Of a DNA stretch of 64,000 nucleotides, positions 29,204 through 31,965 are shown piece by piece (within the stretch, counting starts at the first letter, position 1; the number at the start of each line of letters is the position of its first letter). The DNA is from Acidobacteriota bacterium. GTDB taxonomy: Bacteria; Actinomycetota; Actinomycetes; Actinomycetales; Microbacteriaceae. The stretch lies in contig JABBOB010000007.1 in NCBI GenBank assembly GCA_019352055.1, positions 1 to 64,000 of the forward strand. Reading direction: 5' to 3'. Below the pieces are notes generated by a model, which saw nothing but the letters and a program-made list of their open reading frames with translations, ran no database searches and was not told the DNA's origin. Both the position numbers and the translations under genes were made by a program.

Positions 29204-29851
29204 GTGCCCGTCCGCCGCCTCGTCGTCCTCGACTTCGACGGGACGGTGGCCGTCGGGGACGGTCCGGTGCTCGACTACTTCCGCAGGATCGCCGGAGGCG
29301 CAGCGGACGACGAGCTCGCCCGCTGGCTCGCGTCCGGCGGAGGGCACGTGGACGGCTACGCGTTCGTGGCGGACTGGGCGGCACGGCACGGGGTTCCCGA
29401 AGCGACGCGCTCGGCGGCCTACACGGCCAGCCGGGCCGCGCTGCACGCGGGCGACGTCGGGATCACCGCGCCGGCGGGACTCGCCGCACTGCTGCGGGAG
29501 CGCCCGGCCGACGTGCGGTGCGTCCTGGTGACCAACGCGCCGGTGGCGGGGATCGACCCGCTGCTCGAACGCCTCGGGCTCGCGAGGCTGCTGGACTCGG
29601 TCGTCGGCGACGCGCGCAAGCCGAGCGGCATGCCGGCGGTCCTGGAGCGGCTGCTCGCCGAGGCGTCCCGCTCCCCCGACGCGCTGCTGTCGGTCGGCGA
29701 CGTGTGGCGCAACGACCTCGAGCCGGCCGCTGCGATCGGCGGCGCGACGGCGTTCGTGGACCGGTTCGGGCGCGGCGAGGGCTCGCCGACGTTCCGCGCG
29801 CGCACCCTGGAGGCGCTCCTCCCGTCGATCGAAGGGTGGTGGAGCGCATGA
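29204..29851 (+). CDS. HAD-family hydrolase
   Basis: VVLDFDGTVAVGDG motif I, VTNAP motif II, LSVGDVWRNDLEPAAAIGG motif IV; GTG start. Confidence 0.85.
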   Translation: MPVRRLVVLDFDGTVAVGDGPVLDYFRRIAGGAADDELARWLASGGGHVDGYAFVADWAARHGVPEATRSAAYTASRAALHAGDVGITAPAGLAALLRERPADVRCVLVTNAPVAGIDPLLERLGLARLLDSVVGDARKPSGMPAVLERLLAEASRSPDALLSVGDVWRNDLEPAAAIGGATAFVDRFGRGEGSPTFRARTLEALLPSIEGWWSA

Positions 29852-29955
29852 CGATCCTCGTCGTGGCCGGGCTCCTGGTCGGCATCGCCGTCGCGACGCT
29901 CGTGGCGACCCGCATCGCCCGCCTGGTCGCGTTCCTCCGCCAATTGCGCCGCTGA
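29848..29955 (+). CDS. 35-aa single-TM small protein (putative)
   Basis: ATGA overlap with the HAD gene; MTILVVAGLLVGIAVATLVATRIARLVAFLRQLRR. Confidence 0.45.
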   Translation: MTILVVAGLLVGIAVATLVATRIARLVAFLRQLRR

Positions 29956-30008
29956 GTCGCAATTGCGCCGCGCAGCCGGTACGCAATTGCGACTCAGGAT
30001 CGCAATTC
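29941..30008. repeat. left 68-nt imperfect palindromic repeat (27-nt arms, 14-nt spacer)
   Basis: CAATTGCGCCGCTGAGTCGCAATTGCG - 14 nt - CGCAATTGCGACTCAGGATCGCAATTC; the inner 16 bp (29952-29967 / 29982-29997) are perfectly inverted. Confidence 0.85.
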
Positions 30009-30088
30009 GCCGGAGGAGCGAGCCTGCGGTCGGGTCCTCCACAGGCCGGACCCCTGCGCGTCGGCCTCCTCGGCGGCAGCATGGCCGC

Positions 30089-31060
30089 GTGAACGGCTGG
30101 GATCTCGAGCTGATCGTCGTCCTCGGCGGGTCGCACCCGAGCGGCGAGCGCAGCTCGGTCGCGCGTGACGTCGAACGCGGGCTGCTGATCCGGATCCGCA
30201 GAGGGGTCTACACCGCGCACGCGGGCTTCGACTCGCTGTCCATCGAGCAGCAGCACATCGTCCGGATGCGGGCCGTCGCGGCGGTGGCTCCCGGCACGGT
30301 GTTCTCGCACATGTCGGCGGCGGTGCTGCACGGCCTCCCGGTGCTCAGGAGCGGGCTCGCCCGCGTGCACACCACGGTTCCGGCCGCGAGCCTGAGGGGT
30401 CGGGACGGGGTCGCGGGGCACGTGTTCCCGCTGCTCGACTCCGAGATCACCTGGTGCGGGCCGCTGCAGACGACCGCGATCGGGCGGACGGTGGTCGACG
30501 TCGCTGGAGCGCTGCCGTTCGGCGAAGGGCTGATGGTCGCCGACGCGGCACTCCGCTCCGGTGTCCGTCGCGACCTGCTCGAGCAGGCGGTGGCGCTCGC
30601 CGGCCCGCGGCAGTCGGGGCAGCGGATCGGGAACGTCGTCGCGGTGGCGCACCCGGGTGCCGAGTCCGCGAACGAGTCGATGTCCCGCGCGGGCATGATC
30701 CGATTCGGCTTCGAGCCACCGGAGCTGCAGCACGAGCTGAGGGATGCGGACGGGTTCGTCGCAGCGCTGGACTTCTTCTTCCGTCGGTTCCGCGTCGGCG
30801 GCGAGGCGGACGGGATGAAGAAGCTGCTCGATCCCGCGATCGCGACCCGGGGCGCCGGACGGGCGCTGGTGCAGGAGAAGCGCCGTGAGGACCGAGTGCT
30901 GCCGCTCGTCCGCAGCCTCGCCCGCTGGGGCTGGTTCGAGGCGACCCGTCCGGTGCGCCTGCGGCAGAAGCTCGCAGCTCACGGGGTGCACCCGCCCGCA
31001 GCCCGAGCGTCGATCTCGGACTACGCGCGAGCAGCACGCGGCGCGAGACCCCGCCGCTGA
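30089..31060 (+). CDS. AbiEi-like (type IV toxin-antitoxin antitoxin-domain) protein with a C-terminal DUF559-like region
   Basis: N-terminal winged-helix-like DVERGLLIRIRRGVYTAH, GTVFSHMSAAVLHGLPV, HTTVPAASLRGRDGVAGHVFPL, TAIGRTVVDVAGALPFGEGLMVADAAL: pattern of AbiEi/DUF559 proteins. GTG start. Confidence 0.7.
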   Translation: MNGWDLELIVVLGGSHPSGERSSVARDVERGLLIRIRRGVYTAHAGFDSLSIEQQHIVRMRAVAAVAPGTVFSHMSAAVLHGLPVLRSGLARVHTTVPAASLRGRDGVAGHVFPLLDSEITWCGPLQTTAIGRTVVDVAGALPFGEGLMVADAALRSGVRRDLLEQAVALAGPRQSGQRIGNVVAVAHPGAESANESMSRAGMIRFGFEPPELQHELRDADGFVAALDFFFRRFRVGGEADGMKKLLDPAIATRGAGRALVQEKRREDRVLPLVRSLARWGWFEATRPVRLRQKLAAHGVHPPAARASISDYARAARGARPRR

Positions 31061-31063
31061 TCG

Positions 31064-31131
31064 CAATTGCGCCGCCCAGTCCCAATTGCGACCGGGCTGA
31101 GCGGCGCAAATGGGACTCAGCGGCGCAATTG
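31064..31131. repeat. right 68-nt imperfect palindromic repeat, inverted relative to the left copy
   Basis: CAATTGCGCCGCCCAGTCCCAATTGCG - 14 nt - CGCAAATGGGACTCAGCGGCGCAATTG; outer arm matches the reverse complement of the left outer arm at 25/27. Confidence 0.85.
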
Positions 31132-31134
31132 CGG

Positions 31135-31965
31135 TCAGTTGGTGCCGGGGGCGTCGCGCGCGTGGGTCTCGCGGAGGGTCGCCAGCAGGCTCAGCACCGC
31201 GGCGACCTCCTTCACGCCGGCCACCCGATGGTCCGCGGCGGTCGGGCCGTCGCCGCTCTTCACGCCGAGGTCGTCCGCGGTCAACGCCACGAAGGCGTCC
31301 TCGTCGGTGACGTCGTCGCCGGCGTAGAAGACCGCGGTCGCGTGCGTGTAGCGCCGGAGGTGCTCGACCGCCTCCCCCTTCGTGGTCGAGCGGACGGAGA
31401 ACTCGATCACGTCCTTGCCGAGCCGCACCGTCGCGTCGGGTGCCTCCGCCTTCAGCTCGTTGATCGCCACCAGGTGCGCGACGCGACTGTGCCGCTCGGT
31501 CGCGAGCCGCGTGTGGACCGCGAAGCCCGCCGGCTTCGGCTCGATCCACACGGTGTCCAGCGTGTCCGCGATCTGGTCGAGCACCTGCTCGAGCACATCC
31601 AGCTGCCGGCGCTCGCCGTCGTCGAGCGCGAGCACGTCGTCCGGGTCGTCGAGTCGCAGCTCGATGCCGTGGGAGCCGACGAGCAGGACGCGGTCGCCGA
31701 ACGGGGCCACCTGCTCGAGGTCCTGCAGCGACCGGCCGGAGACCAGCGCGACCCGGGTGTCCGGCACCTCGATCAGCCGCTCCACCGCTGCCCGCGCCTC
31801 GGGCGTCGCCCGCGCCTTCTCGGGGTCGTCGACCACCGGAGCGAGCGTCCCGTCGAAGTCGAGCGCGACCAGGAGACGCGGTGTCGCGGCGAGCGCGCCC
31901 AGTGCGTCGCGCAGGTCCCGCCGCACCCCGCTGCCGGACTGGCCGACGCGATCGTCGATCGCCAT
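31135..31965 (-). CDS. otsB: trehalose-6-phosphate phosphatase
   Basis: LLVALDFDGTLAPVVDDPEKARATPEARAAVERL, VALVSGRSLQDLEQV, YAGDDVTDEDAF. Confidence 0.95.
   Translation of the reverse strand: MAIDDRVGQSGSGVRRDLRDALGALAATPRLLVALDFDGTLAPVVDDPEKARATPEARAAVERLIEVPDTRVALVSGRSLQDLEQVAPFGDRVLLVGSHGIELRLDDPDDVLALDDGERRQLDVLEQVLDQIADTLDTVWIEPKPAGFAVHTRLATERHSRVAHLVAINELKAEAPDATVRLGKDVIEFSVRSTTKGEAVEHLRRYTHATAVFYAGDDVTDEDAFVALTADDLGVKSGDGPTAADHRVAGVKEVAAVLSLLATLRETHARDAPGTN

Follow-up and report, generated by a model that had tools for sequence, protein, structure and literature searches.

Two matched 72-bp palindromic elements frame a single AbiEi-like gene in the window (the whole stretch of DNA that was analysed, 64,000 nucleotides of contig JABBOB010000007.1), and pairing with a cognate element is a general property of the AbiEi-like protein family sampled across actinobacteria. 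We regard this association of gene and cognate element as well supported, with little room for doubt. The best explanation, to which we give a probability of roughly two in three, is that the block is one unit in a REPtron-like system whose protein is AbiEi/nuclease-like and not an HUH (Y1) transposase. A DNA-binding, nuclease-like protein seems here to have spreading repeats of its own as partners, an arrangement for which the open-access literature searched yielded no description.

The paired elements and the gene between them

The upstream element spans positions 29939 to 30010, with 25 of 29 arm positions paired around a 14-nt centre (29968-29981), and the downstream element spans 31062 to 31133, with 26 of 29 paired; neither is assigned a strand. 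Each contains four half-sites close to CGCAATTGCG at offsets 0, 19, 43, and 62 (layout 10-9-10-14-10-9-10), located at 29939-29948, 29958-29967, 29982-29991, and 30001-30010 upstream and at 31062-31071, 31081-31090, 31105-31114, and 31124-31133 downstream. The first-pass annotation had described 68-nt hairpins at 29941-30008 and 31064-31131, and its matched layout held, although the true extent of each element is 72 nt. Its claim that two matched hairpins frame one AbiEi-like gene is confirmed: the pair is real and far beyond chance, exact CGCAATTGCG occurring only four times in the 2,978,855-base draft genome, each time inside the two elements, and RNA folding giving -54.6 and -65.2 kcal/mol (z scores of -6.6 and -11.1), values equalled by 0 of 200 shuffles. 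Sequence searches found no further copies of the window motif in the window's own draft genome, which counts against the best explanation. The pair had also been described as inverted, and a repeat search did rank 29941-30007/31065-31131 as the longest inverted repeat in the window (67 nt, 82%); the orientation is, however, weakly defined, because each element is itself palindromic, and among the 44 loci with both hairpins that are described below, the direct alignment was better in 20 and the inverted one in 13, with 11 ties. Searches of Rfam with the window hairpins returned sub-threshold miRNA matches only, and those of six other loci matched no family. Arm covariation scored above all shuffles in an Amnibacterium set and was only marginal in an M. 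azadirachtae set, so that selection on the hairpin itself is uncertain, and the palindromy could stem from two-fold symmetry of protein binding and not from a hairpin intermediate.

The gene is a single ORF on the plus strand (30089-31060, GTG start, 323 aa), and the downstream element begins 1 nt past its stop. As this is the only ORF between the elements, the unit has no internal toxin partner; an AbiEii (DUF1814) toxin gene is also absent beside it, the neighbors being a HAD-type hydrolase ORF, a 35-aa ORF, and otsB. The product joins an AbiEi-fold N-terminal part to a C-terminal PD-(D/E)XK-like (Vsr/DUF559-like) domain. PADLOC, which calls the protein AbiEi, matched its AbiEi profiles to the N-terminal half (7e-14), and the top PDB matches of the predicted structure (pLDDT 95) were AbiEi (6y8q) and Rv2827c (1zel), with probability 1.0. 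Searched alone against the PDB, the C-terminal domain gave weak PD-(D/E)XK matches only (Vsr 1vsr at E=1.3, Nt.BspD6I, and AbaSI), none of them significant, which counts against the best explanation; the domain shares the D...ExDGxxK signature and topology with DUF559/Vsr-like nucleases, but similarity in sequence and structure is too weak for assignment to them. An alignment of 70 family proteins contains the conserved PD-(D/E)XK catalytic signature of a predicted nuclease, with E196, D228, D241, G242, and K245 invariant and E239 retained in 69, and a second motif, EKRRED, is likewise invariant or almost so. One family member matches DUF559 and a plasmid relative carries a DUF559 annotation, while the window protein had no match in PHROGs or NCBIfam. 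Phage and plasmid collections yielded one partial, diverged match each, and the family is therefore not generally phage- or plasmid-borne.

Locus-specific motifs and dispersed copies

The comparison covered 80 related genes from named genomes, almost all of them actinobacterial, and, because conserved peptides were used for retrieval, the sample is biased and comprises close to moderately close relatives. Scanning for 29-14-29 hairpins placed such structures on both sides of most of the genes, those paired at 20 or more of the 29 positions being present upstream in 43/80 and downstream in 40/80, against 11 of 814 control windows. The two flanks of a gene resembled each other, with a similarity exceeding the 99th percentile for cross-locus pairs, in 58 of 79 loci, compared with 2 of 146 gene-sized segments (Fisher test, 3e-33) and 3 of 68 other genes of the same loci (5e-19). 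The match persisted in 44 of 53 clusters when the proteins were clustered at 60% identity. The window's genome contains four close paralogues of the window gene, and all five genes lay above the flank threshold with a motif particular to each. Roughly one locus in four lacks a clear element pair, which is a point against the best explanation.

In the 44 loci with both hairpins, an element's own partner was ranked top in 37, mean element identity was 0.73 within and 0.39 across loci, and arm autocorrelation reached 0.55 at lag 19 only, the other lags lying at about 0.29. The motif is thus specific to the locus, and the 72-bp geometry with its 19-bp repeat is common to elements of different loci. 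The downstream element lies a median of 5 nt past the stop codon, and the upstream element ends a median of 101 nt before the start codon.

Copies away from the gene were counted with the motif CGCCCCCTC-N10-CGCCCCCTC, two matches of which make up a full element, in twelve genomes. Four Microbacterium genomes whose gene carries this motif type gave 59, 63, 30, and 69 matches, or about 15-35 dispersed element copies each; 18 matches were found in M. paraoxydans, the gene motif of which is similar, and 1-3, a background level, in five relatives with other motif types, with a reversed-pattern control giving 1-8 matches in total per genome. The 27 elements found in 20 sampled regions of M. azadirachtae are all 72 bp long and never lie inside a gene, being situated between convergent genes in 16 cases, tandem genes in 9, and divergent genes in 2. 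Their four half-sites are far better conserved than the gaps, and the element is therefore read as a two-fold symmetric array of binding sites, the hairpin perhaps being a by-product. The proposal that the hairpin family is tied to the AbiEi/DUF559-like protein is supported, since matching hairpins, with a motif of their own each time, flank most members, and dispersed copies are present in A. setariae as well as in the four Microbacterium genomes.

A few dispersed elements adjoin genes unrelated to AbiEi (loci L233, L243, and L079), and this, too, counts against the best explanation. At L233 of M. azadirachtae, a nearly identical pair (1165-1236 and 2296-2367) surrounds an alpha/beta-hydrolase-like gene, with no AbiEi-like gene between, and at L243 of the same species a pair with identical 14-nt centres (1046-1117 and 1748-1819) surrounds two small ORFs, which we take to resemble DUF4160/DUF2442. 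M. paraoxydans carries at one site (G308:C1:306282-306347) tandem 19-bp units, with at least 3 repeats, instead of the 72-bp palindrome. A different repeat (GGACNGGAGG...GGCACCGCGCCTCC) occurs nearby in Curtobacterium (L141:1623-1723 and L195:6215-6286), where it is not tied to the gene.

Insertion site and inheritance

The window genome is Amnibacterium-like, and the block (29941-31133, no strand assigned) is present in it and in A. setariae and missing from A. kyonggiense. The latter provides a near-exact empty site, with neither the gene nor either element: homology to the window stops at 29941 and restarts at 31135, and only nine nucleotides separate the flanking stop codons. The right border is the stop codon of otsB (trehalose-phosphatase, minus strand, 31135-31965), which is 89% identical between A. 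kyonggiense and the window. The left border, placed by alignment with A. kyonggiense and A. setariae, is a conserved 35-aa ORF (plus strand, 29848-29955, reading MTILVVAGLL...FLRQLRR and stop), the last codons and stop of which are supplied by the upstream element; the left hairpin therefore overlaps a stop codon where it had been said to follow one, and only the right hairpin does follow its stop. The 35-aa ORF is membrane-like and adjoins the HAD gene, and the inserted element rewrites its end. No clear target-site duplication was found at the junctions compared in the three species, an observation that counts against the best explanation.

In A. setariae the same block occupies the same site, with both elements diverged (CGCARTTGCG, centre CGAGCGCTCG) and the gene split by a frameshift, its protein being 63-64% identical to that of the window over the first part. 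The search for copies elsewhere, fruitless in the window's genome, succeeded in this species, where seven dispersed copies of its block's motif type were found, all of them intergenic. An LRR-protein gene in A. setariae also has elements on either side, of another motif type (L079:1813-1884 and 2777-2848); this pair was rejected as a cassette, since A. kyonggiense possesses the gene but lacks those elements, its locus bearing a hairpin of a different type at one of the two positions.

Within genera, the genes are mostly syntenic and are hence regarded as vertically inherited, so that the cassette is not visibly hopping, which again weighs against the best explanation. Motifs change nonetheless. 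The syntenic orthologues L118, L122, and L123 differ in motif on both sides of the gene, and the two flanking copies therefore change together. Motif similarity was 0.72, 0.43, and 0.30 at protein identities of >60%, 45-60%, and <45%, and correlations between protein segments and motif ranged from 0.12 to 0.24, values too low to single out a segment that sets the motif. At the metY-metX site, the cassette is found in M. azadirachtae and relatives and missing in the 25 Microbacterium genomes examined, the resolved sites without it showing a short gap in 14 genomes and an unrelated insert in others. Several Microbacterium genomes (L248-L256) have a metY-metX insert of 0.95-1.2 kb that is not an AbiEi-like gene. 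The whole-block presence/absence that the first-pass annotation proposed to look for is thus seen both here and at the A. kyonggiense site; of its suggested MITE-like cassette, this presence/absence stands, while transposition itself is not favored by the synteny within genera.

A REPtron-like reading and its rivals

REPtrons consist of a mostly single-copy, vertically inherited gene and cognate palindromes that adjoin it and are dispersed between genes, each gene having its own repeat type (PMC3116915, PMC8266576, PMC3733652). The unit described here has cognate palindromes beside the gene and, in A. setariae and the four Microbacterium genomes though not in the window's own, dispersed intergenic cognate repeats. 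It differs in its protein, which has an AbiEi fold and a PD-(D/E)XK-like domain without HUH/Y1, and in its element, with 72 bp and half-sites at 0/19/43/62; two element alignments contained no invariant tag at the element ends of the GTAG/CGTC kind found at the foot of REPtron repeats. The unit would work like a REPtron but is not one. Nor is it a classical AbiE system: the N-terminal fold, the PADLOC AbiEi profiles, and palindromic sites upstream of the gene are shared with type IV AbiE (AbiEi/Rv2827c), whereas the absence of an adjacent toxin in the unit, the extra conserved nuclease-like domain, the second element downstream, and the 72-bp four-site arrays in place of 23-bp repeats are not.

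On the REPtron-like reading, a single-gene cassette would encode a winged-helix AbiEi fold and a PD-(D/E)XK-like domain and carry its own cognate element, a 72-bp palindrome of four ~10-bp half-sites, with one copy on each side of the gene. The protein would bind the half-sites as a multimer, its nuclease domain would cut or nick at the element, and cutting followed by repair would seed further intergenic sites with copies of the element and homogenize the copies; protein and element would thus co-evolve, with the gene itself remaining mostly vertical. Recognition of the element by the protein is likely. Its mobilization by the protein, suggested by the nuclease signature, the dispersed copies, and concerted change, is plausible without being probable. 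The fullest form of the proposal, in which four-site palindromes are copied through the genomes of actinobacteria by their own AbiEi/PD-(D/E)XK protein, under a co-evolving protein-repeat code and as a second, independent origin of a REPtron-like system, is put forward a little more tentatively still.

The main rival is regulation by a solitary AbiEi-type autorepressor, with the flanking elements as operators, the dispersed copies as its regulon, another role for the nuclease-like domain, and no mobility of the elements. Classical AbiEi and Rv2827c do bind the promoters of their own genes at inverted repeats, although the known operators are 23-bp repeats with other spacing (PMC7319586). The upstream element lies at a suitable distance from the start codon, but the second copy sits right past the stop, most of the dispersed copies sampled are found between convergent genes, a setting in which operators would hardly be expected, and copies turn over between species; we consider this explanation unlikely. 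Considerably less probable is a cassette or MITE-like unit moved in trans by an unrelated transposase, the 72-bp elements being its ends and the AbiEi protein its cargo. Short palindromic repeats bracketing a gene, the near-exact empty site in A. kyonggiense, and the pairs around other genes at L233 and L243 would fit such a unit, yet the motif of the elements varies with the resident AbiEi protein, the genes are largely vertical, and neither evidence of a transposase nor a target duplication was identified.

That both hairpins are simply terminators, as the first-pass annotation had offered in the alternative, is not supported by a terminator scan, which called none in the elements and found T-runs absent. 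A downstream element abutting the stop codon and many copies between convergent genes would be expected of ordinary bidirectional terminators at gene ends; a locus-specific four-site motif common to both flanks, the exact 72-bp geometry, the two copies between divergent genes, and the lack of such pairs at other genes in the same loci would not, and we hold this reading to be very improbable. REPINs of an HUH/Y1 (RAYT) transposase acting in trans would likewise be palindromic, intergenic, and dispersed, but the 72-bp four-site layout is unlike short tagged REPs, and PF01797 was absent from all 13 genomes searched, the window's included, with control genomes positive in 6 of 14 cases; this candidate was rejected.

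To conclude, solitary AbiEi-type genes of this kind are easily read as antitoxins or DUF559 proteins. Should dispersed cognate palindromes prove to be what their products act on, they would form a class of DNA-processing systems, domesticated or selfish, that is new. Dozens of motifs built on one geometry would then amount to a natural series of protein-DNA recognition pairs, with a code open to direct testing. If true, the REPtron-like reading would also explain why genomes such as those of Microbacterium contain families of intergenic repeats 72 bp long.
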